DNA from: a virus
Length of the DNA: 64,000 nt
Reading direction: 5' to 3' (one strand)
IMG/VR virus record: IMGVR_UViG_3300003321_000095
Coordinates: 1-64,000 of that record
Of this stretch, positions 21,623-55,901 are shown piece after piece. Made by a program: the position numbers and the translations under genes. A model generated the notes under the pieces. The model was not told the origin of the DNA. It ran no database searches and saw only the letters and a list, made by a program, of their open reading frames with translations. Positions within the stretch are counted from its first letter, which is position 1; every line of letters starts with the position of its first letter.

Positions 21623-21831
21623 AGTTTTAGTTTATTGATTAGTTTCTTTGTGTAATGTGCAACGAATGCACCGATGAATCCTGTCAACGCAGCACCCACC
21701 ACCGAATGAATAATAGTCAGTAGTATTTCGTGTGCGATTGCAGAACCCGCTGCTCCACCCGTTATGAATCCTGTGACCTCGTAAATGTTATTGTTGATCC
21801 AACTATTGTGGAGTAGTACTGATTTATTCAT
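21619..21831 (-). CDS. Small two-helix membrane protein, holin-like
   Basis: A 70-residue protein with a glycine-rich helix (TGFITGGAAGSAIAHEILL) and a second helix (VVGAALTGFIGAFVAHY), then a basic end. Possible second holin or antiholin next to the holin-like gene 21174-21443. Confidence 0.55.
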   Translation of the reverse strand: MNKSVLLHNSWINNNIYEVTGFITGGAAGSAIAHEILLTIIHSVVGAALTGFIGAFVAHYTKKLINKLKL

Positions 21832-24800: not shown

Positions 24801-26542
24801 TCATTCAATCTACTGACAGAACCAGCCGTGAACAAGTTAGTACTTCTCAATTTACTCAAGATGCTTCCGACTTGTCTTGGTGTGAGGTTATACTCTTTGA
24901 GAGCGTCCTGTACTTTCTGTACTAATTCCTTTGTCCCCTCTTGCCCCTTTCTGACCCCTTTGGTCATACCCCTATAGAACGTTTGTACTTGGTGCTTGAT
25001 CGCTTCACTAGGAGTCATTCGAACAGACTTCTCGGGCTTGGTAACCCCTGTTGTATTTTCAATCGTTGATTTAACGGCTGACTTTTTATTAGAGGTTTTC
25101 GCGGCAGGTGCTAGTTTCGCTGCTGCCTCACGAGCCTTCAGTAATTGTTCGTACTGACTAGACAAATCTGCTGTGGGATCAGCAGATGCTTGTTCAGCGA
25201 ATACTTTAGATAGATTGCTGATCTCTTCGAGAGCCTTAGTGTACTCAGGGGAAGGTTGTTGTTCACTTTCTGATGTCTGTTTAGGTTCCGTGGACGTTTC
25301 GTTTTCTTGAACATTTTCTTTACCCTGTAAAGTATTGTTTTCCTCTTCTAATTTCTGTCTCTCCTCTGTTGATAGTGTCTCACCACCTTTTGCTTTGTTA
25401 AGGTTATCCTGTGCAAGCAATTCTTCATTCTCCGCAACCTTCTTGTCGATTAATTCACTAGACGACAACTCTGGTTGATTGTTAGTCAGATCGGTGACAA
25501 TGTTCTGAGCGGTATTGTCGATAGCTTCTGACAGAGGTGCGACCTCGGGAGATATTTGATCATCGACTACAGAAGAACTTTGATCAATAGACGTTACCTG
25601 CTTAGCCAATTCATGCAGTTCTTCTACCTTCTTCTCAATTTTTCCACTGTGTTCACTGGTCGATATTGTTGCACCGATTCCGGGTAATATCATGCCGACC
25701 ACACCACCTACAGTAGCAGCCCTCGCTACGCCCCAGAAAGGATCTCTGTCTGGATCATAGGATGATTTGGCAATCTCGTTCGACAGATATGTTTGAACAC
25801 CCTCCTGTAAACCTTCCTCAACAGCATTGGTGCCGGCGACCTTAGCAACATCTAGTACCTTGTTAAGTGTTGTACCACCAGTGATCTTATTCAGTTTACC
25901 GAACATGTTTTGTATCGGTAACGCTTCTGTCTGACCAACCAAATAGTTCTTGACGAGCACTCCAAAAGCATCGTCGTCACTCAAGCCAGCAGCCTTCGCA
26001 GCTTCATACTCCGGTACAGCAGTCATTGCGCCACCGAGCGCACCTGTCGGTGTGAGAAGGTTCTGTTCGATTGCACGCGCTGTTGTGGGTAATAGTCCAG
26101 AGTTAACAGTCTGGGTAGCAAGACCACTTCCTCTAGTTAACGCGCTCGCGCCACCAGTACCAAGCATCGCAAGACCAGTACCTAAACCTTGAGCCACTTG
26201 TCCACCAAAACTATTCTGTGTTTCTTGGTCGACGTAGGGCTGATAGAACTCAGCAACATCTGCTCCCCATTTAGAAGCGGGCGAGGTGTACTGCCCCTTT
26301 GTAATACCTAACGGACGATAAACATAATTATTCATCATCTCATCAATAGCGCCGAGTGCCTTAAGAGGGAGTGAAGTATAATTACTAACCAATCCACTCG
26401 CCGTTAGTTCGGCGTAATCGAGGGGTGAAGATGTCTCTCCGATTTCTTTAGCGTTAACGGGTGGTTCCCACACCTTCGCATTGGAGGGAGGAGTCCATTC
26501 TTTGGCATCGGCCGGTGGCGTCCATATCTCGTCTTCCTCCAT
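21824..26542 (-). CDS. Giant internal virion (ejection) protein with polyvalent-protein features
   Basis: A 1572-residue protein. The N-terminus carries three copies of a W-x-PP-x-(D/N)AK repeat (residues about 7-33). Next comes a hydrophobic, glycine/alanine-rich stretch (about 115-300) with EEGLQEGVQTYL, a phrase typical of phage polyvalent proteins. A long charged, partly disordered middle (about 300-520) follows, then long helical segments. The last third has the KPLVWADVSAAKVSYLTFY region found in large polyvalent proteins. Position after the tail genes and the membrane-active stretch suggest a protein carried in the head and injected with the DNA, as T7 gp16 or the cargo proteins of crAss-like phages. 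No lytic or protease motif was found. Confidence 0.65.
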   Translation of the reverse strand: MEEDEIWTPPADAKEWTPPSNAKVWEPPVNAKEIGETSSPLDYAELTASGLVSNYTSLPLKALGAIDEMMNNYVYRPLGITKGQYTSPASKWGADVAEFYQPYVDQETQNSFGGQVAQGLGTGLAMLGTGGASALTRGSGLATQTVNSGLLPTTARAIEQNLLTPTGALGGAMTAVPEYEAAKAAGLSDDDAFGVLVKNYLVGQTEALPIQNMFGKLNKITGGTTLNKVLDVAKVAGTNAVEEGLQEGVQTYLSNEIAKSSYDPDRDPFWGVARAATVGGVVGMILPGIGATISTSEHSGKIEKKVEELHELAKQVTSIDQSSSVVDDQISPEVAPLSEAIDNTAQNIVTDLTNNQPELSSSELIDKKVAENEELLAQDNLNKAKGGETLSTEERQKLEEENNTLQGKENVQENETSTEPKQTSESEQQPSPEYTKALEEISNLSKVFAEQASADPTADLSSQYEQLLKAREAAAKLAPAAKTSNKKSAVKSTIENTTGVTKPEKSVRMTPSEAIKHQVQTFYRGMTKGVRKGQEGTKELVQKVQDALKEYNLTPRQVGSILSKLRSTNLFTAGSVSRLNDFITKVTNDSVYADKIERANELRGRIKKRKGSEGLSWREKDALKSFSKVDPSQVDIDQYLKQAEGIAETFGDVKNRKTLNLSDISNYVSQQPNSAEVAERERAEKLAEDLGLSFEEAQILLTEETPAEKAAANKEKAEQIRTALQNTADQAKNTFEEGEIEGDGKYAKDDIEGLKNIDLSLLTNQQLKDFIKVVDRIHTNEDWGGVGRLTAISKAQQDFKELQKVSKDWKILNITDLGNNWASLPVALQAITGLPKNAALFQLYMGMKGVGDASVKAVTSEEQFVRGLDELRKKYKKAFQDDSIIRQGIYSELIRYNEDEDPTEALAQNKRVIEQSIENHRKVGEVKEADRINSLYEPFKNALTISDAERIMGQVDEGGKKVIDYAIDYYRPFADEIAAYNDRFFNKKTTKVNNYSGPRTWRKKGMGFESDMEEFGAINPDNAPSPFTSAANKPKQISSAKEFTGGERTDAVLDFNKHMNMTRGVKNAVFGIEGMLPMLQVRENLSRQEDMAKLFGAKEGDPDSIKKANDLYNKIFNKRDGSYFDFEDHVASRKVPDSTERNIAAILNPLRKIGYTLSLSGFSQIPKQLTVLSNIAINSGNAGNMFTSIGDLSRGSQESKDAFFKGESISLRGTQKSQLSLGELTGTTKADQIQKNVNDFVDKRFEGWLGLKPLVWADVSAAKVSYLTFYKDYLQQNGEKWEGFKKETEQKTDKVRQEARAYAKQRVDALQVVSNPAELGKRVKDQSAFAQVAKALLVPFGTFSTNTKIRMWGDIRSLVAGNSEQKKAAAKDLAGTVTEQVAFQTVSAALKIYVWSQIGQYIAGLFDLPEDKKRGEKDWENAINMWKANMVGDLLPIVLTDPGQKALVSTINDASDRLLNYKDPLYEYKGGPTSPVEQIADIMGPYGAGPEKLFKAASVLEEGLSGERRVGDKIKKLTPEQQRFTLLVAALYGLNINGKMPSDVVNAIDRERRLQKPGKRKYREPQINYINE

Positions 26543-29602: not shown

Positions 29603-32600
29603 TTAGAATGGTGTTCGTGAAGATTTTCTATATTTAGTGAGCACTGTTGTCAAGGTAGCTGTGTCAGTAGTACCTGTTTTCCAATTCACCGTCGTAAGCA
29701 ACCTTGTTCCCCTGAGACGGGCGCTTCCGCTATCTCTCGGTATCTTAATCCTGAAGTTACCCTCTACGTCACTGATATCGAGGGAAGCCGTAGATGTCTG
29801 ACCATTTAATTGAACCAGGTAATCGACAGATCCTAATCTACCGGTAGACACGAAAGCCTGATCGTCGAATGTTTTAGCAAGTTCGGGGTCAGGGTTAACA
29901 ACAAATGTTACACGGGGTGTTTTGGTAACTCCGAATATCTGATTGTAATTACCCGCATACATCTTGTGTAGTACCACTGATGATCCGTTCTTTGATACTA
30001 TGTAAAGTGCGTCATCATACACACCGTCCCCCAACTTGTTACCACTTCCACTTGTCTCCAGATCTCCTATCCACAAATTTAGTTGTTCCGAGAAAACATA
30101 AGCAATCCCCTGATTATTGTCTACAAGCCAATACTCTTTTCTCGAAGAGTCGTAGAGAGCAAGTAAGTTATTGGACAAAGAGCGTGCGTTCGTTCTCATA
30201 CCATTCTCTTCAAGCCATTTTAATTGTTGACCGCTCAAAGCGTAGATAGAGTCGTTGAGGGGATCGGGAATGAAGATAGTATTACCTGTTTCAATGATTG
30301 ATTGGAGTTGTTGTCCACCTCTTTTTGAGTCGATCACAAGAGGTCGACTAATCACATCACCCGCGCCAATCGCCAAGATATTAGCGTCTGTCAATTCGAC
30401 AGAGGTTTTACCTGTGGGTAGGTAAACTATCCTGTTATTTTGAATAGCGTACAGGTTGTCCCCCTCCAATGCTAGTTTAGTGATTCCACCACCATTCTCT
30501 TCAAGGTCGTAGATGTTACCTACCCTGAAGATATCAAATCCCTGTGTGTCGCTACCATAAATCTTGACATCGCTGTACATCACACGAGCTTTGTAGTTAC
30601 TCTGTTCGAAGTTAAAGGCTGGTCGAGCGAAGTAGACTCGTTGGTCATCTTGCTTGGAGATGTTGATGTTATAGAGGTAAGTCAAAGGTGAACGGATTGC
30701 ACCAGCAGACACAAAGAACTTATTGTGATTCATGATGGGAAAACCTCCTTCTGGATAGTCTACACCCCCTACACTTATACCCATTATGTTGTCTTCAGCC
30801 ATTACTCCTCCGTTATACTCTGATTCGAGCACACACTGGACGAATTGAGAAGCTCCTTCAAGAGCGATGGGTAAAGATATAGCCGCACCACCCTGATTCA
30901 AATAATAACGACCATCCCAATTTGTTAACAAATCGGACGATGATTCGGCAGAAGGTGGTGCGTAATTTTTAGCTTGATTGATTACCGAATACTGTGTATC
31001 TGAAACTTTAAATACGTGAGATGACAGAAAACAATCCCCACCAAAAACAGTGATATCTACGTCGACCCTGTTACCTGCTTTTACGTCTACCAACTCACCA
31101 CTCGTGAAGGTATATGAGGCACCCGTTGAGATGAATTCGTGTGGTGTGTCTACGCTACCATATCTGTCATCACCATAATTATTGACAGCGTTGACGATTC
31201 TAAACGCTTGTGTGGGAAGAGTATTGCTGTAGTCTGGATATTCGTTTATAAACGCGTTAGAAATACTGTCGGACATTGGATATTTAGGACCACTTGATCC
31301 AACAATATAACCACCATCTGCTCTGACATTGTATACACCTGCTGCAAAAGTAACAGAGGCAGTTCTATTTAATTCTTCGAACGCTTCCGAGGTCTCGATA
31401 ACAACACCCTTCTGTACCTGTTGTTTATATCCCCAGTTCACACCCTGTCCATTCAACGAATCGTAATCAAAGAAACTGTTACCGTTAAATGTGATAGGTT
31501 CGGACAAGGACTCGACGAACTGGTAGTTTTTGATTGTAGTGGGGGTAGTTGTAATGCTCTTCGCTGACCAACCACTATCGAAGAAATAGTTTGCATCTTT
31601 CAGGGCATACCACACACCACTCACTCTTGTCTTGATGTAATTACCAGTTATTGGATGAGAGGTATCGTCAAAATCTACAATACTGGTTTTATTCAGTGTA
31701 TAGTCAATTGTTTCTAGTTTCTCCGATCCAGTAAACTTATACGGAGTATCCCCGTACATTGTTGATTGGGGATAAATCATCGAGAAAGAGAACTTGTTAT
31801 CGTCATCAAGAGCCAACGCTGCTTCTCCCTTCTTACCCAAAGAAGCCCCCGACCCAGTCTGTGTTAGTTTACGTTGGATGTTTCTTAGTTCTGGCCAGAA
31901 TAGATTCTTAGGAGTGTATGTTCTCAGTGATTTCTGAGGTTGTGCGTCTGGGTAAGATTTATCACCCTCCACACCATCGTCCTGCGTTACTGCGAGAGAA
32001 GGATAAGAGTCAAGAGCACCGATACCCTCGATGTACATCATTGGTATTACGGGAGTCTGAAACAATATCCTCTTGATCCTTTTAGCGCGAACGATCTCAA
32101 ACCCAACAGCCCAGGTTGGGTGATTGTGAATATTCGAAAGAGTAATACCTAATGCTCTCAGTTGATCGGTGCTGCTGAATATAGTGTAAGCGTTCGATGT
32201 GCTTCGAGCAGGGAAATGTACGTCGGGTAGTGAGCCGGTTATCTGGTTACCAGTCAAACTGTTCAGATCAAGCACCGAGACTGGACCCTTGTTACCATAC
32301 TTATCTTTGTAGACTATGCCGAAACGATATGTTTCGTCTCGGAAGTAACCCTTGAACTTCGAAGAGTAGTACCCATCACTGTAGATATCGTTCTGGGTAG
32401 ATACCACTGTTGAGACTTCTATGTTACCACCATCAACAGCGGGTGTACCATTGTCAAATTGAAGATCGTGGTATTTTATGTTACCCCTGAATAACCTGTT
32501 CTGTTTGACCGCTAGTGTCTTCGATGAGCGTATCGCGGCTGGATCGATAACAATGTCCTGGATAGCGACTAAACCAACTCTATCGTTCGATTTGTGAACG

Positions 32601-33496
32601 TATTGAGTGTTGGCGCTTGTCAATGAGGTGATTGGTAGCAGTGCCGCTGTTTGTACGGGATTGTCGACTCCATACACATTCTCTATAACAGCTAACTGAA
32701 AGTAATCGAAATGATCTACTTCATCAGGAGATGGAGAAACTATGACCGTTAATGCAAAAGGAGACGGAAGACCTGGTGCGGAATAGACGGGTTTGTCATC
32801 ATTTACTTTACTGTAAACGTGAAATGGTTGTGACAGTGTCGACCACCTGGTGAAGCGTTTGTGTGTTGGATCGACGCAGCGATAAGCATATTGATACGTA
32901 CCCGTCAAAAGAGTACCTGTATCAATCGATAACAAAGATACTTTACCGTTCGCCCCCCATCTCTGTAGCGATATGTCGAAATCAGTTAGGAAGAAGGCTG
33001 CTGAACCGGTTGGTATTTCACACCTTAACTGTCTTCCTTCGTTATAGTTATCTTCGAAATAAACATAGTCTATACCGTTCTCAGGATAGACTCTTGTATC
33101 AACGACTGTGTCTGAAGAGAAATAGCCGCTCGGTAACGACTGATCTTTGAAGAGATAATACAGAACGTTATTATCGAGATCATAACAGTTGATATAGAGT
33201 GCGTCGTGACCACTCTCCTTAGCAACAATGAAAACAGTCAAACAGTTGACAGCTTCTACCGAACCAATCTTATATTTTGTTGGTACAATTCTTACATTAC
33301 AATCTATAATTGTTGATATGGTTCCACTCAACGAACCAATCTGTGAAGTACCCTTGATATTAGTCAATGCGAGATAATCACTACCGCTCGACAACGTTAC
33401 GTTGTGTGCCGAGATGTAGTGTGTTGGATCTTTGATGGAGTTGTTTGTGTCACCATCGAGTCCCTGATGAAAGCGGTTAGCTACTATTTCTTGCAT
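29603..33496 (-). CDS. Tail stabilization/hub protein (P22 gp10-like layout)
   Basis: A 1297-residue, almost all-beta protein. The N-terminus NRFHQGLDGDTNNSIKDPTHY and ALTNIKGTSQIG resembles phage tail stabilization proteins that close the head-tail tube. Repeated strands, with LAVKQNRLFRGNIKYHD about residue 325 and IEVSTVV phrases, suggest a propeller-like hub. The C-terminal end (RIKIPRDSGSARLRGT) forms a small beta domain. It is much larger than P22 gp10, as in crAss-like phages. No enzymatic motif. Confidence 0.6.
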   Translation of the reverse strand: MQEIVANRFHQGLDGDTNNSIKDPTHYISAHNVTLSSGSDYLALTNIKGTSQIGSLSGTISTIIDCNVRIVPTKYKIGSVEAVNCLTVFIVAKESGHDALYINCYDLDNNVLYYLFKDQSLPSGYFSSDTVVDTRVYPENGIDYVYFEDNYNEGRQLRCEIPTGSAAFFLTDFDISLQRWGANGKVSLLSIDTGTLLTGTYQYAYRCVDPTHKRFTRWSTLSQPFHVYSKVNDDKPVYSAPGLPSPFALTVIVSPSPDEVDHFDYFQLAVIENVYGVDNPVQTAALLPITSLTSANTQYVHKSNDRVGLVAIQDIVIDPAAIRSSKTLAVKQNRLFRGNIKYHDLQFDNGTPAVDGGNIEVSTVVSTQNDIYSDGYYSSKFKGYFRDETYRFGIVYKDKYGNKGPVSVLDLNSLTGNQITGSLPDVHFPARSTSNAYTIFSSTDQLRALGITLSNIHNHPTWAVGFEIVRAKRIKRILFQTPVIPMMYIEGIGALDSYPSLAVTQDDGVEGDKSYPDAQPQKSLRTYTPKNLFWPELRNIQRKLTQTGSGASLGKKGEAALALDDDNKFSFSMIYPQSTMYGDTPYKFTGSEKLETIDYTLNKTSIVDFDDTSHPITGNYIKTRVSGVWYALKDANYFFDSGWSAKSITTTPTTIKNYQFVESLSEPITFNGNSFFDYDSLNGQGVNWGYKQQVQKGVVIETSEAFEELNRTASVTFAAGVYNVRADGGYIVGSSGPKYPMSDSISNAFINEYPDYSNTLPTQAFRIVNAVNNYGDDRYGSVDTPHEFISTGASYTFTSGELVDVKAGNRVDVDITVFGGDCFLSSHVFKVSDTQYSVINQAKNYAPPSAESSSDLLTNWDGRYYLNQGGAAISLPIALEGASQFVQCVLESEYNGGVMAEDNIMGISVGGVDYPEGGFPIMNHNKFFVSAGAIRSPLTYLYNINISKQDDQRVYFARPAFNFEQSNYKARVMYSDVKIYGSDTQGFDIFRVGNIYDLEENGGGITKLALEGDNLYAIQNNRIVYLPTGKTSVELTDANILAIGAGDVISRPLVIDSKRGGQQLQSIIETGNTIFIPDPLNDSIYALSGQQLKWLEENGMRTNARSLSNNLLALYDSSRKEYWLVDNNQGIAYVFSEQLNLWIGDLETSGSGNKLGDGVYDDALYIVSKNGSSVVLHKMYAGNYNQIFGVTKTPRVTFVVNPDPELAKTFDDQAFVSTGRLGSVDYLVQLNGQTSTASLDISDVEGNFRIKIPRDSGSARLRGTRLLTTVNWKTGTTDTATLTTVLTKYRKSSRTPF

Positions 33497-33560: not shown

Positions 33561-34239
33561 GAGAAAATTGAAACGATGGAATATTTCTCATCCAAACACT
33601 ATTGACTATTCTCTTCATGTGTTCTGGCGTGAGAGAAGCCATTTTCTTTTTAGCTTTTACTCGATCTGCCTCTAGCATCCACCATTGCCTATTCTGTTCT
33701 ATCTCGGAACGGTTGTCGTTATTTCGGGCACTCCACATAAAACGACAGAAGTAAACACAGGCAAGAGCTTCTTCTTGTCGAATCAGCGGAAGACCTGTTT
33801 CATCATCAACAGGGTACGAATAATATCTAACTACTATGGAGAATACCTGATCTGCGTTAGTGCCTAGATGAAAGGATGTAGTATCCATCGAAATGTCTAC
33901 TGGAATCCGATCATTCAACGTTTGTTGAGAGGTGGTGGCCACTGGTCGAAGTCTATCGTCACGGTAAATTCTCTTACCCCCCGCTCTGAATTTATGTTGA
34001 AGTTGACAACCATTGCTATCAAACACATTAACATCGATAAGTGCACGAAAATCTTTTGGTTTGAGAACAGTATAATTAATAGGTATCAATTCTACCACAC
34101 GAACATCATCGTCGGATATACCTAATTCAGGAAGAGCTAATGACGCCACCCATTGGCGGCACAACAGTTTAAACTTTGAGTCTGCGTCCTTCACTATTGT
34201 GGAGGCAGTTGCAACAACTTCATCGAGTGATATAAACAT
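33553..34239 (-). CDS. Connector / ring protein
   Basis: A 228-residue structural protein. Beta-rich with a strongly conserved-looking C-terminal helix (MKRIVNSVWMRNIPSF). Together with the proteins at 34239-34961 and 35331-35972 it forms a set of three consecutive mid-size proteins, the size and order expected of podovirus head-tail ring or tail-tube proteins. Overlaps the next gene by one base. Confidence 0.55.
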   Translation of the reverse strand: MFISLDEVVATASTIVKDADSKFKLLCRQWVASLALPELGISDDDVRVVELIPINYTVLKPKDFRALIDVNVFDSNGCQLQHKFRAGGKRIYRDDRLRPVATTSQQTLNDRIPVDISMDTTSFHLGTNADQVFSIVVRYYSYPVDDETGLPLIRQEEALACVYFCRFMWSARNNDNRSEIEQNRQWWMLEADRVKAKKKMASLTPEHMKRIVNSVWMRNIPSFQFSQY

Positions 34240-34961
34240 TATTGTTCAGGTTGAGTTGGTTGTTCTTGAGAAGGATTAGCGATTGCCCGATGATATAAGA
34301 CATCTTTAGGATCAACACCATCGTTAGACTGATCGCTGGATGTTCCATAAAGTTCCGACTTCAGCAAATCAACAACTCTCTCGATCATATAAGAAAGAGT
34401 CTTGTCGCTGATAACAATCTCGTCACTATCTGCCATCGCTATCACATCTTGTTTTGGAATGTAATAGACCATAATCTTGTTGAAGTCAAGATCGGATGGA
34501 TTGAGGCCTTCTACGAAGATGTTATCACCTTGCCTCGACCAAAGCAGTAACTCGGGAGACGGCGCTGTATACTTCATCTTTCTGAATGTAGGCATCATCT
34601 GAAGAGAGGCCTTGTACACTTCATCCCCTTCATCTGTTAGAACCTGGACAATTCCATTATCGTCGAACGTGTCGAGCACTTGCTCGGAAAGACCGAAATA
34701 ACTTCTCTCTTCACTGTCGTCAATACACGCCACTACTTCCGGTGAGAGTTGATTACATACTTGTCTGGATATGTAGATTGGTGGTATCTGATTACCCTTC
34801 TTTAGTTCATTGTCTATCTCACGAGCTTTCAAATCGTTCAACATGATGTTAACGTGATAGGCAATCTGATCGTATTCTAACTCAGAGTCTTTCGAAGGAG
34901 CACCTTGGTTTAGTTGTAACTCAATATCACCGATTAATTTTTCTTTAGTTATACGTGCCAT
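34239..34961 (-). CDS. Connector / ring protein
   Basis: A 240-residue structural protein with an acidic helical start (EKLIGDIELQLNQGAPS) and a Gln/Pro-rich end (NPSQEQPTQPEQ). No enzyme motif. The context and size fit a head-tail ring protein. It overlaps the nuclease gene by 17 bases. Confidence 0.55.
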   Translation of the reverse strand: MARITKEKLIGDIELQLNQGAPSKDSELEYDQIAYHVNIMLNDLKAREIDNELKKGNQIPPIYISRQVCNQLSPEVVACIDDSEERSYFGLSEQVLDTFDDNGIVQVLTDEGDEVYKASLQMMPTFRKMKYTAPSPELLLWSRQGDNIFVEGLNPSDLDFNKIMVYYIPKQDVIAMADSDEIVISDKTLSYMIERVVDLLKSELYGTSSDQSNDGVDPKDVLYHRAIANPSQEQPTQPEQ

Positions 34962-46620: not shown

Positions 46621-48786
46621 CTAAGGTGCCGCTAAAGTTGCTAGAGTTTTTATCTTAGAATCGTTCAGTTTGACTTTGCCGGTCAGGGCTGTCTTATCGA
46701 GATTACCCTTGTTCTTCAATTGTTGCAGACCCATCTGACCCTGGATATTCATTTGCTGAGTAGCCATCTGATCTTGAGAGAGTTTCTGTTGTAATTGTGC
46801 GTCTCTCTCCTGCTCTGCTTGCTGCATCTGAGATTCAAGCATCTTACGGACTGTGACCTTACGTTGGAGTTTGCGAAGTGCCTGTTTGATATCTGGATCG
46901 AGCAGGATGTCAAGAGCGTCCTGAACTTCAAGTTGTTGAGACTGTACAGCTAGCATGATGAAGTTCTCGAATTTGGCTCTATCTTGTAAGAGAGGAGGCA
47001 AACTTTCAACGATCACACCTACCGATTCGAGATCGATATCGATGTTCTCTTTCAGAAAATCGACTCCCGCCGATCCGATAATAGGTTCAAAAACCTCTCT
47101 ATCGGCCATAGCGATGCGCATCAGTTTAGCCTGTTGTGTCATCACCCTTGACCAGAATCTCTCAAACCCTATGAAATACGGCTTCGTAGTCATGGCTGAT
47201 TGGAAGATAGCGGCGTCGGTCACCCCCACTGCTTGGGAAGGAGCCTGTACAACTCCCTGTCTTTCGGCAGAACTACCCAAAATAATATTCTCCTGTTGGT
47301 CCAGAAAGTTCATTATCTCAACATATTCCCTGATACCTTGAGTTATCGATAAATCGATCTCTTTGAGTACGTTCATACCCCCCTGCATCATCTGGTACTC
47401 TTTGGTATTCACCGCAACAATACCCGCAGTCTTCAGATACGATGCTACCTTGTCCAGGTTCCAGCCTTCTGGCATCAGAGCCATATCGAATACGAACCCC
47501 TTAGCACCCGCCCTGTTCATGGCAAGCTGTAGGTTGTACATCGCCATGTCTTTGAGGAGATCGAGCGCCACCACCTGTTCCACTTTAGATATTGATTGAC
47601 CTAACATATAGTTTGGTACCCAACAGGTATAAGGTGGCAACGTTTTCTCTAAAGTGTCAATGTCACGGGGTTGGTTAGGAAGTTCGCCCCATTCCCTAAT
47701 AATCTCTCCTCCGATCATTGTGATCCCCCTCCAACATTCCATTTTAGAAGTGATGATATTGGCTTTGCGAGGAGTTTTGTTCTCGTCGGTGAGTTCTTGC
47801 AGGTGTTCTGTGCCGTACTTCTCTTTGACCTCGTTCTTGTACTTGCGAGTCTTGAAGTCTTTCCAAACAGCCCTCAGTACCATGACTCTAGGCACATTGT
47901 CAATATTCCTAAACCAACCCAACGAACCGTTGTCAATACAATCGAAGAAATGATTCTGGCTGGCTCCAATGTACAAACCCGCGTTCATGTTGGTATAGAC
48001 GTTGTAGTTGTTCTGAGCCTTCTCTAATTCTTCTTGAGTTAGGTTGTAACGTTCAGCGGCTTCGGCTAAACCCATATAATAGGCTTCTAAGAAATAAGTA
48101 CTGTCGGACAGTTCGTCGTCGGTAGCGTTGGGGTCCCACACAAAGCACAGAGGTTCCACACGGAAAGGTCGCGGCACTCCTCTTACAATCTCGTTACGAA
48201 TGAAGCAAGCATTCTGTATCCATACATCTTTGAATGTAGCATTCCTAAGCCTGTCGACATTGTTACGTTTCGCCAGGTCCTTTAATCCCATCTCATACAC
48301 TAACTCTAATTTGTCTTTGTATTTAAGATCGGCCCATTCGTCTAAAGACAAATCTGATTGGGGAATGTTGGGGTCCTGAACAGGAAGACCTGTGCGTTCT
48401 TGTGCAAACTGCGCTGCATCTTGAAGTCTTCGTTGTACACGCAGTGTTTCTTTTGCTTCGTGTTTACGTGATACTGCTTCTTTAGATAACGCTCTTACTC
48501 TCAATTCCCATCCTCGCGATTCGAGTTCACCGATTAGATTCTCAATTTTCGCCTTCAACGCAGAAATACTAAAATACATCGCCGGTAAATCGCTACCATC
48601 TTGTGCTTTCTGAATCCACGGCGTCATGTCACCAGTACTTCCTTGATTGAAGTACTTAATGGCCTCTTGCTTCACGCGATACCGAATTGCCCAGGTATTT
48701 GTCAAACTATATTTAGCGAGAGCTTTACCCCATGCGAGATGGTATTCGCGATCTTTCTTTTGAGTAGCTAGTGACGGGAGGTTCAT
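46621..48786 (-). CDS. Portal protein
   Basis: A 721-residue protein beginning with a helical clip region and with a long glutamine-rich C-terminal coil (QQAEQERDAQLQQKLSQDQ), as in podovirus portals. It lies between terminase and scaffold. The middle has the AWKDFKTRKYKN / WVPNYMLGQSISKVEQVVALD region with barrel-like character. Twelve copies form the DNA channel at the head vertex. Its start overlaps the terminase stop by four bases. Confidence 0.75.
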   Translation of the reverse strand: MNLPSLATQKKDREYHLAWGKALAKYSLTNTWAIRYRVKQEAIKYFNQGSTGDMTPWIQKAQDGSDLPAMYFSISALKAKIENLIGELESRGWELRVRALSKEAVSRKHEAKETLRVQRRLQDAAQFAQERTGLPVQDPNIPQSDLSLDEWADLKYKDKLELVYEMGLKDLAKRNNVDRLRNATFKDVWIQNACFIRNEIVRGVPRPFRVEPLCFVWDPNATDDELSDSTYFLEAYYMGLAEAAERYNLTQEELEKAQNNYNVYTNMNAGLYIGASQNHFFDCIDNGSLGWFRNIDNVPRVMVLRAVWKDFKTRKYKNEVKEKYGTEHLQELTDENKTPRKANIITSKMECWRGITMIGGEIIREWGELPNQPRDIDTLEKTLPPYTCWVPNYMLGQSISKVEQVVALDLLKDMAMYNLQLAMNRAGAKGFVFDMALMPEGWNLDKVASYLKTAGIVAVNTKEYQMMQGGMNVLKEIDLSITQGIREYVEIMNFLDQQENIILGSSAERQGVVQAPSQAVGVTDAAIFQSAMTTKPYFIGFERFWSRVMTQQAKLMRIAMADREVFEPIIGSAGVDFLKENIDIDLESVGVIVESLPPLLQDRAKFENFIMLAVQSQQLEVQDALDILLDPDIKQALRKLQRKVTVRKMLESQMQQAEQERDAQLQQKLSQDQMATQQMNIQGQMGLQQLKNKGNLDKTALTGKVKLNDSKIKTLATLAAP

Positions 48787-50684
48787 CTGTTGAAGAGGGG
48801 ATTATTTGATTTTATTTGTACGCGCATTGGTGCTCCGTTATTAACTAGTTCTAGTTTACCGCCGATGCGTTGGTAGGAGGCAGAGGGATTCATGGATAGA
48901 TGTGCCGTTGTTGATTCAGCGACTCTTCTATCTGATTGTAAAAGCATGAGTGCCCATCCGAAGGCACAAGCCAAATCATCATCTGCATGGTCAAGACCGA
49001 ATTTAGCACACTCTTCGATGAAACGAATTGATGGTATTAAATCGGCATGATGCTCCCAATAACTTTCGAGTAAACCTATCATTTGTAGTTTACGTTGAGG
49101 AGTCATCTTAACACCAACAGTCATTTCGAATCCACCTTGTAATCTATCGGGGGACTTCGGAGCAAGCGATAAAAGATTAGGATAATGTTGTTCAAAATAA
49201 TCTTTTAAACGTGCTCCACCCTTATTGGTCTCAACAAGCAATGGTGTGTTATTATACCACTTCAACAACATACCGACTTGATCGTAATATGTTGTCAACT
49301 TCGGTGGACGATCTGTAAATTCAGCAACTAATTTAGGTCCATCTAAACCAAAAGGTCTTGCTAATATTGCAGTACTGAGATTAGAGTTATCTCTGCTTTT
49401 GCGTGTATCGTCATCTTCAGCCGGATCACAAGCCGCTACGTAAGCGTGTTTGATATCGGGGACTGGACGTTCGTAAATAATAATCTTACCGTCTGGATCT
49501 GGTACGAAGTCTGGCGGATTACCTGGACCTTTGGGTCTCATCCAACCAGTCACCATCTTAGGAGGATTCTCCATAAGATTCGTCGCTATCTTTGCGCGAA
49601 CCATTGGATTACCGACACCTGTGCCATTTGCTTCTAAGAAGGCATCTTCTTGTGTAAGAGGGTAACGTTGAAAAAATTTATGACGTATAATTGGAGTCAG
49701 TGTCTCCATTCGACGACGTTCATATATAATCCATCTCACACTTTCTTCAATCATATCGTTACCAAGATCGTCGACGATTAAACATTGATATCCAAAGATC
49801 GGAAGTCTTTCAAAATTATATTGTTCTGAATTTTTCCAGAATTCACGAAGTGATCTACCTGCTTTGTTTGTATCACCGACAGTACCGAAAAGTATAGGTG
49901 TTCCCACTCTAACTCCGTCCTGTATAATCGTGTCTTCACCATTAGCCCACATGGCAGTTCCCTCTTCCACTTCTCCTATTTCATCTAGGCATAAACGCTT
50001 GAACTGGGAACCGGCGAAGGCAGTTGGTGTTGGTGCAAAAGATCTTATTGATGAATTGTTACCCACCCATCTTTCTGTTTTCTCTATCCATTTACCGAAT
50101 ACCATTGCGTCGCGACGATCCGTGTTGATGTATGTGCGCAGGAACTTAGGAAGATTTCTATGAACATATTTGTGTTTATCGAATAAGAGGTAACTGTCAG
50201 TTAACCCCTTCGAACTCATCCCTATATCGAAATCTTTATTGAACGTGCACTCGTAGATATTGTCTGTTGATATATACCAACTCATTCCAACCTGGCGACG
50301 TTTGAATGTCACAGAACCTCTACCTCTTGTCTTAACTACCTTATCAAGTTTGTTCGCGAAGTCCATCATCGATGCTCTGAAATCAGGACGAATCTTACCG
50401 CGTTCCTTGTTCTTGATATAACAGGCATTGAGGTGGAAGAAGTAGCGACCACTCATGCCATCGCTTGTACCGTATCTACATTTATTTATGAAATCAAGTT
50501 CCCAATCTAACTTAGCACGTTTGTCATCTCCGAAATCCGGTATCTCAACATGCTCTATTTTTTTTGTAACACGAAACGGATTTGTCGCCATGATTCGCGC
50601 AGTGTGGTATTGTACCTCTGCTTCGAGATCTTCCTTGTATTCGTTCCGCGAGATAATTATGGGGTTATCTTCCTTCTTAGACAT
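48783..50684 (-). CDS. terL: Terminase large subunit
   Basis: A 633-residue packaging motor. ATPase motifs: a Walker A-like TFKRRQVGMSW (about 126-136) and Walker B RLCLDE (230-235, catalytic E235). The nuclease half has an ACDPAEDD motif (D420) and a second acidic set HADDDLACAFGW near residue 600. The protein resembles the large terminases of Bacteroidota podoviruses. No small-subunit gene is recognisable next to it. Overlaps the portal gene by four bases. Confidence 0.9.
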   Translation of the reverse strand: MSKKEDNPIIISRNEYKEDLEAEVQYHTARIMATNPFRVTKKIEHVEIPDFGDDKRAKLDWELDFINKCRYGTSDGMSGRYFFHLNACYIKNKERGKIRPDFRASMMDFANKLDKVVKTRGRGSVTFKRRQVGMSWYISTDNIYECTFNKDFDIGMSSKGLTDSYLLFDKHKYVHRNLPKFLRTYINTDRRDAMVFGKWIEKTERWVGNNSSIRSFAPTPTAFAGSQFKRLCLDEIGEVEEGTAMWANGEDTIIQDGVRVGTPILFGTVGDTNKAGRSLREFWKNSEQYNFERLPIFGYQCLIVDDLGNDMIEESVRWIIYERRRMETLTPIIRHKFFQRYPLTQEDAFLEANGTGVGNPMVRAKIATNLMENPPKMVTGWMRPKGPGNPPDFVPDPDGKIIIYERPVPDIKHAYVAACDPAEDDDTRKSRDNSNLSTAILARPFGLDGPKLVAEFTDRPPKLTTYYDQVGMLLKWYNNTPLLVETNKGGARLKDYFEQHYPNLLSLAPKSPDRLQGGFEMTVGVKMTPQRKLQMIGLLESYWEHHADLIPSIRFIEECAKFGLDHADDDLACAFGWALMLLQSDRRVAESTTAHLSMNPSASYQRIGGKLELVNNGAPMRVQIKSNNPLFNR

Positions 50685-51573
50685 CTGTATTTAAATAAAC
50701 CACTGTTTTACCGTTGTACGCTTTGACGTATTTCAGCATTTCGTTGACGAAGGGAATGTAGTCGAAAAGAACCCGTTGAAATATCATGGATTCCCCCCTT
50801 ACTATGAGATGAGGAACAAATGGATGTTTGGTTATCTCCTCTGTAGCATTTGGAAAGTTCTTCCAATTAATCCATGTGTCTTTGGATGCCACCTTTATTT
50901 CATCTACTGTCGAGCATAGGATGATGTTGGTGGGAGAAATTTCGCGAGGGTTGTGTAACCTATGCGCCATGAATCTCTCTACCTTTCCGTGGGGGATTTC
51001 TTGGATTTTGATACTCGACCAGAATGCTGCAAATGGTGCACTAATCTGATCGCGCCAACTACCCCCCTCAATCTCCTTCCACCAGATCTTATCGAAACTT
51101 TTCGTGTTCCCCCGTCTAACGATTACACCGCAGCGGTACAATCCATTATTCTCTGGGTACTTTAACCCCCTATATTTCGCTACCTGTTTAGAAATAGTTT
51201 CTTCAGAATCAAGTTTTTTGTCCAGTACGATCTTGGCTTCTTCATACACACATTGTCTCTGGGGATGTTTTGTCATGTGAACCCCCTCTCCCATATCTTT
51301 CACGAACTCGTTGAAATCACCATAGAGTTGATAACTGGCATCGACGTAGACTGTGACTTCGTATTTGTTGTGATTGGGTGGATTTATTTTATAGAGACGA
51401 GATAGTAGTTTCGGCGAAAGAGTTGACTGTGGTTTTACTATTTGCCATACACCTGGATTCTGAATGTCCTGATCGGTATAACAGACGTAATCGAAATCTT
51501 CAGATATTAGACGGGGTTGTTTGAGATCATCGTAAGGGCCGAAAAGGCAGGTGTAAATAAGTTTGGTGTTCAA
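50677..51573 (-). CDS. DUF616-type glycosyltransferase
   Basis: A 298-residue protein with the features of the DUF616 / TOD1-like glycosyltransferase group: an opening YTCLFGPYDDLKQP, VDASYQLYGD (DxS-type metal site, residues 77-86), TKHPQRQCVYEEA and SWRDQISAPFA (172-182). It probably moves a sugar from a nucleotide donor; acceptor unknown. It lies between terminase and a homing endonuclease, two genes away from more sugar-modifying enzymes, so a shared glycan-modification job is likely. Confidence 0.75.
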   Translation of the reverse strand: MNTKLIYTCLFGPYDDLKQPRLISEDFDYVCYTDQDIQNPGVWQIVKPQSTLSPKLLSRLYKINPPNHNKYEVTVYVDASYQLYGDFNEFVKDMGEGVHMTKHPQRQCVYEEAKIVLDKKLDSEETISKQVAKYRGLKYPENNGLYRCGVIVRRGNTKSFDKIWWKEIEGGSWRDQISAPFAAFWSSIKIQEIPHGKVERFMAHRLHNPREISPTNIILCSTVDEIKVASKDTWINWKNFPNATEEITKHPFVPHLIVRGESMIFQRVLFDYIPFVNEMLKYVKAYNGKTVVYLNTDV

Positions 51574-52311
51574 TCAGATACGTTTAAAAGTGTATCCTTT
51601 GCACGATAACCTCTTACCATTACATACCGCACCTATTTTGCACCCTATTTTATAATTATCGAACATCTGCCGTGCAGCTTCTTCGCAACTAGAAAACACA
51701 ACACCCGTTTCGATACACATAACTGGTTTAGAATGCGCTTTAGATATTTTCTCTCGAACTTCGGGTGGACGAGGAACACCTTTATTCCTCCCTATTAACT
51801 TAGCAACATGTTCAGGAGATAATTTTCTACCGTAGAATGGATGGGCTTCACCTCTCAGAATAGTTTTGTTGTTCATGATTTTAATTCGTTGTTCTTCTGT
51901 CCATTTCCTGCCTTTTCTTGTCACACTCATCTTGGCGCGGGACTCGGGAGACATTTTACGACCGATAGCAGATTGTCTCATCTTTTCTTTCGTTTCTTCT
52001 GGAAGCGGTCCGTTATTACCACCTTCTTTGATATTCATCAACTCATAACCCAGCATTCGATAGTGAGCCATATAGAAACATTCGGCGTAGTTTAGATGGT
52101 CTTGTGTAACAGTATTTTTATTGAACTCATGAATCACTTCGAACTTGTGCGCGTCCCAGCCGTGTTTTGCAATAGAGTTATGGAGACGATGTTGTTTCTT
52201 CGCTTGATCGTGTTTGTATTGTCTTTTCCGATGTTCTATGTTTCTACTCTGACCGATATAAAGATAACCGGAAGGGCTTGTGATTTTGTAAATACCTATT
52301 GTTTTAGACAT
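51574..52311 (-). CDS. GIY-YIG homing endonuclease with NUMOD repeats
   Basis: A 245-residue free-standing homing endonuclease. GIY (residues 6-8), YLYIGQSRN (16-24) and the downstream E in NYAECFYM form the nuclease core. NUMOD3-like repeats follow (GRKMSPESRAKM, GRKLSPEHVAKL), then a helix-turn-helix tail (FSSCEEAARQMF). It begins where the glycosyltransferase gene stops, which suggests insertion between late genes. Confidence 0.88.
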   Translation of the reverse strand: MSKTIGIYKITSPSGYLYIGQSRNIEHRKRQYKHDQAKKQHRLHNSIAKHGWDAHKFEVIHEFNKNTVTQDHLNYAECFYMAHYRMLGYELMNIKEGGNNGPLPEETKEKMRQSAIGRKMSPESRAKMSVTRKGRKWTEEQRIKIMNNKTILRGEAHPFYGRKLSPEHVAKLIGRNKGVPRPPEVREKISKAHSKPVMCIETGVVFSSCEEAARQMFDNYKIGCKIGAVCNGKRLSCKGYTFKRI

Positions 52312-53016: not shown

Positions 53017-53083
53017 ATTTCTCAATAAACGCATCTGAGTGCGTCGAATCAACAATACTATTGTCGATGAGGAAAATGTATGT

Positions 53084-53152
53084 TGCGGGAGTCGGTCTTG
53101 ATCCGACGTGAGACAGGTTATGAGCCTGGTGACTAGCCCTAGTCTATCCCGC
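53084..53152 (-). tRNA. tRNA-Met (CAT)
   Basis: On the minus strand: acceptor stem GCGGGA/TCCCGC, D arm GACT-AGGGCT-AGTC, anticodon stem CAGG/CCTG with loop CTCATAA (anticodon CAT) and T arm GTCGG-ATCAAGA-CCGAC. The D loop is only six bases and no CCA is encoded; otherwise the cloverleaf is good. Could instead be tRNA-Ile2 if the C is modified. Confidence 0.75.
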
Positions 53153-53205
53153 GATATAAGACTCACCCTAGGACGCTGTTCTTATGGGTAGCGTGGTAAG
53201 TACTA

Positions 53206-53391: not shown

Positions 53392-53724
53392 CTACTTCTG
53401 ATAAGTTCCTTGCACACCCCTTGCTGCTCGATCACTCGCCCGCTTACCAATCCACAAGAGAGCCTCGTCAAGTTTAGTGATAGCCATAGAGGTCTCGCGA
53501 GTAGCCATTTCTCCTACGTTATTCTCTTCGAGATATCGTTTGGCCACAGCGATTAGAGTCTCTGTGAAATAGCCTTTCTGTCGATAGATGTCGGGATTAG
53601 ACTTGTCTCCCTTGCAAAAGGTGAGTGGTTCAAAAGTTTCCTGGAATCCACCGTCTATTACTTCGTAGACTGGTACGGTGTAGGTTGCCTTTGCTGTTAC
53701 TGTTTCAATTTTTTGTGGTGTCAT
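53392..53724 (-). CDS. Putative Acb2/Tad1-type cyclic-nucleotide sponge
   Basis: A 110-residue protein. Its C-terminal half is a helical hairpin: FTETLIAVAKRYLEENN, then RETSMAITKLDEALLWIG and a basic tail. An end of the form A-x-TKL-E/D-EAL-x-W after a long helix is what I associate with the hairpin domain of Acb2/Tad1-like proteins, which bind cyclic oligonucleotides and so block CBASS or Thoeris defence. The match is from memory of the pattern only. The first 45 residues are a beta part. Directly upstream of the sigma-54-like promoter and next to the glycan-enzyme gene. Confidence 0.5.
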   Translation of the reverse strand: MTPQKIETVTAKATYTVPVYEVIDGGFQETFEPLTFCKGDKSNPDIYRQKGYFTETLIAVAKRYLEENNVGEMATRETSMAITKLDEALLWIGKRASDRAARGVQGTYQK

Positions 53725-55901
53725 AAAATTCTATGATGTTTAAGGATGTTTTCGTAAAGTTCGGGAGAAACATAGTCGAGTTCTCCGGTTGAGACCTTGT
53801 GTTTACTGTAGACTATGATGTTGTTCCGATACCAGATATCTATGTTTTTGTTTTTACATATCTTAGTTCTGAGGTGAGTTGAGGGATAGAAGCCTCTCTT
53901 TTCAAACTTCTCAGCCCACCAGAAGGCCCATTTTTCATTGTAGTGGTTGTGTCCCCCCTGACCTGGGATTGCGCCTGAGAAGAGAATTGTGCCCTTGCAA
54001 TGTCTGCATAAAGTATCTATTAAGGTATCGGCATATCTCTCTTCTAAATGCTCGCTAACTTCTACGTTTATAACCAGATCAAACATTCTGTACTCATGGT
54101 GCCTCAATCCATCTTCGTGATGGTAATAGGGTGTTCTTAGATCGTGGTCTACATAATTTTGGATTAAGAGTTTTTCGCGGGGTACGCCGAAGTCTACACC
54201 AACCTTCGTCATTGTGTTCGGTAGCACACTGAGCCAAGAACCCGTGTTGCAGCCAAAATCGATTACCGACTCAACATCCGTCAAATCAATATACTTGAAT
54301 ATCTCTTCAGCGGATCTGCGTGAATCGATGTCTTCGCGATATTGATCAGAATACTCGTCCGGCTTCTTTCTCCAACTCCATTCTCCAACATATTTTTTTA
54401 GTTCTTCTTTCGACATAGCGTCTACTTTATCGAACTCTGCGGGATTATAATGAGGATTTCTTGTGCTTGAGTTGATACCGATATAATGGTCGAAGTGGTA
54501 AAGGTTACCAGGAATACGAGCGATTCTATAACCTAATTTTTTGAATCTGCTGTAGCGTTCTCGATCTTCTTTATTGTAGCTGATAAATTTCTCATTCTCG
54601 CCACCTCCCTCAAAGAACTTTTCTTTGTTGAAAAAGATAGCACCACCTACTGATGGGTTTTCGGGTGTGTCTATTCCCTTTGCTGATTTTGAAAATACAG
54701 ATAGATCATACAGGGGGTAGATTTGGTTTAAGAGTTTTCGCGAAATCCGGGCGAATAGGTAATCGTAAGGGTAGACCATATCTGCTTGGTTCTTTCGGAT
54801 CTTCTCGACGGCTTGCCAGATTTGGGCGGGAGGCAGAGCGACATCACAATCGAAATTGACAACAATGGGAGTGTTCGCAGCTTCCGCCATCTTGTTCAAC
54901 ATCTTCGTGCGATGAAAGTGCTCTATATTGAAACTCATGTAATGGCACCACTGCTTAAAATGGCCAAACTGTTTGTTGTCACCAACTTCACCAACTATGA
55001 TGTTTGTGTCAAATGCTTTCTGTAGCAAGCAGACGGACAGTGAGAGGTTCTCAGCGCGATCTCTGCTATCACAGAAAACGGGCAAGGTAAACGTAGTGTC
55101 TTTAAGATCGACAGGTTTATCCTCCATTGATTCCCACCTCTTCAGATAGAAATTGTAATCACCTTCTTTCTTTAAGAGTTTACCATCGAATAACTTAGTT
55201 GGTTGAATAACACGAGTTCCTTCTTTCTCTCCTAAGAATGCTGAAAAAAAATGAAACGTTGAATTAGCAATGATGAAGTTATCACAGAGGCTCATCAAGC
55301 ACATCTGCTCGATGTCGGAAGAACATTCTGGAAAGTGTGCGTTCGGCAGACAACCGAAATGGAACTTGCAATAATCCAAGTCATCGCTGATGAAAACGAG
55401 ATTGTAATTCTCATAATCGAATGTCTTCAGCGCGTTGATATAATAGGACGGAGATAACACATGATAGTTTCCGTATAACTTGCCGACGTAATCTCCTCTC
55501 CTAACGCCAATCGCTATTGTCGGCTTATCAAAAAGTCTGATGAATTTTTCTTCAGTGTCCGACTTGAAGAGCGGATGGAACTCGAATAACTCTTTAATAT
55601 TCTTTTCATTCGGCCAGTACTCAGTGTGTTGAAAATATCCTTCAATATCTGTGATCGTTTCTTCACTCCACCACTTAGCATCCTGATGAATATCGTAATA
55701 TCGATACGACTTCTCCTTATAAATATTATCTGTTTTAACATTTCCTCTGGGAAACTCGTTTTTAAAATATTTGTGATAAGGCCATTCGGAAGGTATCCAC
55801 CAGTCAACACCGTACGTATTTGACATTGCGTGCAGGAGGGCTATTTGAAATAAATTATTTCCTAGTCTCCCGAGTTTTCCTAACTTACTAAACTGCAACA
55901 T
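53721..55901 (-). CDS. Three-domain fucosyltransferase / glycosyltransferase / methyltransferase
   Basis: A 726-residue fusion. Domain 1 (about 1-255) looks like a GT11 alpha-1,2-fucosyltransferase: GRLGNNLFQIALLHA at the N-terminus and GVRRGDYV (R134-R135) for GDP-fucose. Domain 2 (about 265-500) is a GT-A glycosyltransferase of galactosyltransferase type, with NFDCDVALP (DCD 351-353), VGGAIFFNK (418-426) and a following KEDRERYSRFKKLGY. Domain 3 (about 540-700) is a SAM-dependent methyltransferase with VIDFGCNTGSW (546-556) and NVEVSEHLEE. Such fusions can build and cap a methylated fucosyl glycan. Acceptor unknown: capsid, fibre, DNA or host surface. Overlaps the Acb2-like gene by four bases. 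Confidence 0.85.
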   Translation of the reverse strand: MLQFSKLGKLGRLGNNLFQIALLHAMSNTYGVDWWIPSEWPYHKYFKNEFPRGNVKTDNIYKEKSYRYYDIHQDAKWWSEETITDIEGYFQHTEYWPNEKNIKELFEFHPLFKSDTEEKFIRLFDKPTIAIGVRRGDYVGKLYGNYHVLSPSYYINALKTFDYENYNLVFISDDLDYCKFHFGCLPNAHFPECSSDIEQMCLMSLCDNFIIANSTFHFFSAFLGEKEGTRVIQPTKLFDGKLLKKEGDYNFYLKRWESMEDKPVDLKDTTFTLPVFCDSRDRAENLSLSVCLLQKAFDTNIIVGEVGDNKQFGHFKQWCHYMSFNIEHFHRTKMLNKMAEAANTPIVVNFDCDVALPPAQIWQAVEKIRKNQADMVYPYDYLFARISRKLLNQIYPLYDLSVFSKSAKGIDTPENPSVGGAIFFNKEKFFEGGGENEKFISYNKEDRERYSRFKKLGYRIARIPGNLYHFDHYIGINSSTRNPHYNPAEFDKVDAMSKEELKKYVGEWSWRKKPDEYSDQYREDIDSRRSAEEIFKYIDLTDVESVIDFGCNTGSWLSVLPNTMTKVGVDFGVPREKLLIQNYVDHDLRTPYYHHEDGLRHHEYRMFDLVINVEVSEHLEERYADTLIDTLCRHCKGTILFSGAIPGQGGHNHYNEKWAFWWAEKFEKRGFYPSTHLRTKICKNKNIDIWYRNNIIVYSKHKVSTGELDYVSPELYENILKHHRIL

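Follow-up and report, generated by a model that had tools for sequence, protein, structure and literature searches.

A single conserved polypeptide of 726 amino acids, encoded by a virus from an environmental sequence collection (IMG/VR), carries three intact domains of GT11, GT7-like GT-A and class I methyltransferase type. The DNA analysed here (the window) comprises 64,000 nucleotides, positions 1 to 64,000 of virus record IMGVR_UViG_3300003321_000095, whose full length is 71,232 bp; labels beginning with L denote related contigs or sequences in the analysis. The protein belongs to a widespread phage family with interchangeable third domains, so far undescribed in the open-access literature, of which an incomplete search found no earlier description of the GT11-GTA fusion. 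An initial annotation, made from the letters of the window, had placed the gene at 53721-55901 and had read it as a GT11-like fucosyltransferase, a DxD glycosyltransferase and a SAM methyltransferase fused in this order. The position is correct and the strand is minus, the plus strand across the interval being riddled with stops. Pfam matches and motifs bear out the three kinds of domain in the order given, as do, for the two glycosyltransferase domains, PHROGs matches and the fold of a structure model.

Three domains in a single conserved polypeptide

The gene, its domains and its predicted catalytic motifs are as follows.

53721..55901, minus strand: whole fusion gene, 726 aa; GT11, GT-A (GT7-like) and class I SAM methyltransferase
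55131..55901, minus strand: domain 1, GT11 fucosyltransferase-type, residues 1-257 (PF01531, phrog_2644, fold matches)
55491..55502, minus strand: GT11 motif I RRGD, residues 134-137; R134 and D137 are the same in all 25 fusion proteins
54372..55109, minus strand: domain 2, GT-A of GT7 type, residues 265-510 (phrog_15655, Glyco_transf_7C, B4GalT profiles, fold)
54843..54851, minus strand: DxD motif D351-C-D353, predicted sugar-nucleotide/metal site; neither Asp varies among 25 fusions and 9 phage GT-A domains
54564..54569, minus strand: E445-D446 in FISYxxEDxER, invariant in 25 fusion proteins
53724..54323, minus strand: domain 3, class I SAM methyltransferase, residues about 527-726 (Methyltransf_23, UbiG-type profiles)
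54240..54266, minus strand: predicted SAM-binding motif I VIDFGCNTG (DxGxxxG), residues 546-554; 15 methyltransferase homologues share the D and both Gly without exception

Each of the three Pfam matches exceeds its curated gathering cut-off. The first domain matches Glyco_transf_11 (PF01531) at E=1.3e-16 over residues 128-257 (61.2 bits against a cut-off of 23.9), as do all of the fusion proteins (25/25), and the glycosyltransferase family phrog_2644 at 2e-36 over residues 1-257. The second matches phrog_15655, a family of unknown function, over residues 265-510 (3e-47) and Glyco_transf_7C over residues 409-472 (5.5e-6; 26.4 bits against 23), and a profile search with this module recovered B4GalT7 (4irp, 1.4e-4) as well as B4GalT1. 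By profile, fold and motifs, this domain is closest to a GT-A fold of the GT7 (beta-1,4-galactosyltransferase) type, and family knowledge suggests that its E445-D446 pair is the counterpart of the GT7 GWGxED catalytic motif, presumably equivalent to the GT7 base. Finally, the third domain matches Methyltransf_23 at 3.1e-7 (residues 540-678; 30.7 bits against 27), with UbiG and further class I methyltransferases returned by profile search.

A fold search was needed because phmmer with the whole protein against the PDB gave weak StiE methyltransferase matches only, and a GT11 profile matched no PDB sequence. An AlphaFold model built on a 49-row alignment of viral and bacterial relatives reached a mean pLDDT of 91.7 and a pTM of 0.75, falling below pLDDT 50 only at residues 514-524, the linker between the GT-A and methyltransferase domains; a single-sequence model was discarded (pLDDT 32.5). 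Against the PDB, the model retrieved the fucosyltransferase WrtF (E about 1e-7, target-normalised TM about 0.6) together with beta-1,4-galactosyltransferase 1 (B4GalT1), GalNAc-T2 and chondroitin polymerase, and a viral structure library yielded alpha-1,2-fucosyltransferases. The kind of structural comparison suggested by the initial annotation thus recovered, from the whole-protein model, the fucosyltransferase and GT7-type folds; no methyltransferase was among the listed PDB matches.

A full-length homologue, 78% identical, is present in another virus contig. Measured against it, dN/dS is 0.075 overall, 0.075 in the GT11 domain and 0.10 in the methyltransferase domain; in the GT-A domain dS is saturated and dN is 0.20. 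A dN/dS of about 0.08 indicates that the fusion frame and all three domains are under purifying selection. A one-off chimaera or assembly artefact was rejected in view of an identical contig and the 78%-identical syntenic contig, both from other samples, and of the existence of the fusion family.

Key catalytic motifs are intact. In the GT11 domain, motif I keeps RRxD and has Gly in place of the leading His of HxRRxD (GxRRxD); downstream, SDD and ANST(F/Y) are kept and SWWGAWL reads HFFSAFL, the altered WW motif being found in both the window and L002. Because motif I is without its usual His and SWWGAWL is altered, the donor or activity of this domain could differ from the usual. These departures in the window and L002, along with the degraded second domain of some Flavobacterium relatives, also suit a protein in which at least one domain is catalytically dead or a sugar-binding module, leaving fewer than three activities. 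Such a protein is unlikely here: R134, R135 and D137, the DxD and ED pairs and the SAM motifs are conserved, the domains are under purifying selection, and the His is missing in other family members as well. Its position is occupied by Phe in the nearest relative of the window protein and by Ser, Gln or His elsewhere, so that the leading His is not a family constant.

The fusion family and its third domain

Viral contigs were scanned with an alignment of the GT-A domain and their frames were then read, giving at least 23 IMG/VR contigs with the GT11-GTA core besides the window and its identical contig. The initial annotation had thought the design unusual in tailed phages. It is not rare: the same glycosyltransferase pair is fused in many metagenomic phage contigs, at least 13 more of which have a methyltransferase as third domain (L011-L015, L018, L020, L023, L025, L027, L028 and the divergent pair L050 and L056), and cyanophages also have the same glycosyltransferases as neighbouring separate genes. 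Among the matches listed, the third part is GT25 in L035 (1.6e-17), Stealth_CR2 in L017 (3.1e-9, slightly under the curated cut-off) and a short Lys-rich tail in L016, L019 and L021; L022, L026, L036, L037, L040, L043 and L048, likewise among the matches listed, have no third domain. A free-standing GT25 gene adjoins the fusion gene in the short-tail group, and a Stealth-type gene (phrog_7999) adjoins it in L012 and L018. Since GT25 and Stealth-type genes also lie free beside fusion genes, adjacency and fusion appear to interchange in the family. The methyltransferase fusion may have arisen once or several times: on a tree of the core, the methyltransferase label needs 5 changes, the starred branches forcing only 1. 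As a separate observation, one family member (L024:2266-3408) has its frame broken within the GT-A domain. The Flavobacterium GT11 proteins L092, L093, L095, L097 and L098, of 436-473 aa, have at their C-terminus a degraded-looking stretch that can be aligned to the GT-A domain.

Whole members of the family may also have been replaced. In L172, whose terminase large subunit (TerL) is 56% identical and whose gene order is similar, the corresponding slot holds a two-domain member only 37% identical to the window protein. L171 carries a three-domain protein 78% identical to that of the window, though its TerL is only 60% identical, and the window and L037 are not sisters on the core tree. From these identities and the tree, the slot has probably exchanged family members.

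The modules have separate relatives in two settings. Cyanophages possess GT11 and phrog_15655 GT-A as adjacent or near-adjacent separate genes; for example, in cyanophage S-SCSM1 the two lie in a cluster with GDP-mannose 4,6-dehydratase and GDP-fucose synthase. These Kyanoviridae glycan clusters contain the same two glycosyltransferase modules, 27-36% identical, but the transferases are unfused and without an attached methyltransferase, the glycan operons are larger, and both the phage group and the host are different. In polysaccharide clusters of Chitinophagaceae (UBA4407) and Mucilaginibacter (UBA5151), GT11 (28-39% identical) and methyltransferase (37-38% identical) genes adjoin in the order GT11 then methyltransferase, together with GT2s; there, unlike in the fusion, they are separate chromosomal genes without a GT7-like module between them. 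As the GT11/GT-A and GT11/methyltransferase pairs are each linked elsewhere, the fusion seems to unite two gene pairs, which supports one common pathway.

Phage, host and gene neighbourhood

Several genes bear on the identity of the phage. A 1297-aa protein (window 29603-33496) matches crAss_MUZ, the Crassvirus muzzle protein, at 1.6e-42, window 34239-34961 weakly matches CrAss_Ring_2 (0.0022), and by tblastn TerL shares about 25% identity with terminases of crAss-like phages. On the muzzle match, the weak ring match and the TerL likeness, the phage is a divergent environmental crAss-like virus. Its portal is P22-like, and a search for relatives of its major capsid protein in isolated phages gave none. 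In the open-access subset of the literature, nothing was found on crAss-like fucosyltransferases. A 1572-aa protein (window 21824-26542) weakly matches a phage virion RNA polymerase family (phrog_2206, 1.9e-5).

A Shine-Dalgarno-like motif precedes 3 of 37 long ORFs, which by a rough estimate is not above chance; scarcity of such motifs is typical of Bacteroidota. The nearest cellular relatives of the GT11 and methyltransferase domains belong to Flavobacteriaceae, Chitinophagaceae and Mucilaginibacter. Given the crAss-like phage, the few Shine-Dalgarno motifs and these relatives, the host is likely a member of Bacteroidota.

Two genes downstream of the fusion gene are of particular relevance.

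50677..51573, minus strand: companion glycosyltransferase of TOD1/MUCI70 (former DUF616) type (PF04765, 5.7e-8; phrog_26101, 5e-26)
48783..50684, minus strand: terminase large subunit (TerL), downstream of the fusion gene (phrog_6681, 8e-34; late/packaging context)

The initial annotation had pointed to a DUF616-type enzyme at 50677 and an SGNH fibre. Both are present, the former as the TOD1/MUCI70-type companion, which is syntenic in L171 (61% identical) and L172 (36%), and the latter as a GDSL/SGNH domain in a 1643-aa protein. TerL lies within about 4 kb of the fusion gene in the window and likewise in L171 and L172. A tRNA-Met gene (window 53082-53153) lies between the fusion gene and the terminase and is kept in the relative L002. 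Directly downstream of the fusion gene, and overlapping it, is a gene for a 110-aa protein (window 53392-53724) that matches phrog_2428 (8.5e-14) and, weakly and below threshold, the Acb2/Tad1 hairpin domain of anti-CBASS/anti-Thoeris sponges (E=0.0033). GIY-YIG/NUMOD3 homing endonuclease genes occur at window 51574-52311 and L171:11976-12794, on opposite sides of the terminase gene in these two related phages. Between L171 and the window, the portal is 89% identical and the adjoining terminase only 60%, indicating mosaic exchange across the packaging genes.

The 71-kb record was also searched for genes that would indicate other settings. No tyrosine integrase was found in it, and a prophage or serotype-conversion setting is not supported. 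GT11 and GT7 are families known to act on glycans, the domain homologues sit in polysaccharide clusters, and the record holds no thymidylate-synthase-family hydroxymethylase; these points make it very improbable that the enzyme attaches glycans to modified bases of the phage DNA (hypermodification) as a protection from restriction, and a DNA-hypermodification setting was set aside. In favour of such a role, phage glycosyltransferases have been described as able to add glycans to DNA (Pyle et al. 2024, as cited in PMC12619734).

Proposed mechanism and target

The preferred reading is that the window protein would act as a soluble cytoplasmic enzyme of three activities, building and capping the outer end of a short glycan as A064R of PBCV-1 does. 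Its enzymatic part alone, addition of a hexose and a fucose-type sugar to a short glycan followed by methylation, is considered probable; the whole statement, virion target included, is held with a little less than even confidence. Through its DxD/metal site, the GT-A domain would add a hexose (galactose-type) from a UDP-sugar, and the GT11 domain would add L-fucose or a related sugar from GDP-fucose. As the 71-kb record yielded no gene of the PF16363 (dehydratase) family for making GDP-fucose, the host would supply this donor. Sequence does not tell which sugars are used; going by how GT7 and GT11 enzymes usually act, a Fuc-alpha-1,2-Gal-beta-1,4 (H-type-2-like) unit is a plausible product, which the methyltransferase domain would O-methylate as a cap. 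Less surely, the acceptor may be a glycan on phage structural proteins, begun by a different enzyme, for instance the TOD1/MUCI70-type companion; no enzyme that starts a protein glycan could be recognised with confidence. The third domain may likewise be a plug-in, swapped in other phages for GT25, a Stealth-type transferase or nothing, and glycan ends would therefore differ between phages.

In A064R, domains D1 and D2 attach a pair of rhamnoses, and D3 completes the capsid N-glycan by methylating the final rhamnose at O-2; D1 was first mis-assigned to UDP-glucose (PMC9614988). The initial annotation had likened the window protein to this enzyme, and in design the likeness is borne out by the domains and the model: each is a viral polypeptide (638 aa in A064R, 726 aa here) with the order GT-GT-MT, soluble in the case of A064R and probably so here. 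The families are different, however, in that A064R-D1 is a GT34-like GT-A and D2 a new family, whereas the first two domains of the window protein are GT11 and GT7-like GT-A; moreover, the host of the window phage is prokaryotic. The solved A064R-D1 was absent from the profile matches of the window GT-A module, which matched GT7 instead. Because its first two domains come from other families, the window protein is not classed as a homologue of A064R, and by analogy it would work like A064R.

Phage-encoded glycosyltransferases also serve Che8-type virion glycosylation in mycobacteriophages, there on capsid and tail proteins. Those transferases, for which there is biochemical proof, are separate enzymes in phages of actinobacterial hosts and, as far as is known, of other families. 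To our knowledge, glycosylated phage particles have been proven in few groups only. For a virion target, the capsid and tail glycans reported in mycobacteriophages are a precedent (Freeman et al. 2023, as cited in PMC11256854 and PMC12619734).

In 11 of the 17 fusion contigs examined, the fusion gene has a portal, terminase or major head gene at a distance of about 4 kb or less, a raw count; in the remaining 6 its surroundings differ, with lysis genes, for instance, or without any recognised phage gene. Since fusion genes recur near head and packaging genes, the virion is slightly favoured over the host surface as the target. Only a little less likely is that during infection the enzyme alters the polysaccharide of the host surface (an O-antigen, a capsule or an exopolysaccharide repeat), on which it would place fucose/hexose and a methyl cap so that the receptor is changed, other phages are excluded or progeny are kept from sticking to debris. 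Methyl caps terminate chains in known O-antigen systems. Close GT11 and methyltransferase relatives neighbour each other, with GT2s, in Bacteroidota polysaccharide clusters, and the cyanophage equivalents lie in large sugar-nucleotide/glycosyltransferase clusters interpreted as serving cell-wall/LPS modification and cell-surface polysaccharide synthesis (PMC9602691). Against a host-surface role, no Gtr-type flippase or membrane component was noticed beside the fusion gene, the lack of an integrase in the 71-kb record argues against the usual lysogenic conversion, and the recurrent place among head and packaging genes suggests late morphogenesis expression. Virion and host surface are held nearly equal, because the placement is a raw count and the polysaccharide-cluster context of the homologues favours the host surface.

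Taking the virion as the target, it is tentatively proposed that Bacteroidota tailed phages, crAss-like phages included, may use single-polypeptide glycan assembly lines, each a GT11-GT7 core with an exchangeable third domain, to cover their own capsids with fucosylated, methyl-capped glycans that differ from strain to strain; this would be a bacterial-virus counterpart of, and independent of, chlorovirus A064R. A compact, clonable three-in-one enzyme from a crAss-like phage makes own-glycan building by such phages directly testable. With natural third-domain swaps on a constant two-transferase core, the family should be of use for studying how glycan ends vary in phage-phage and phage-host competition, and for engineering multi-step glycosylation.
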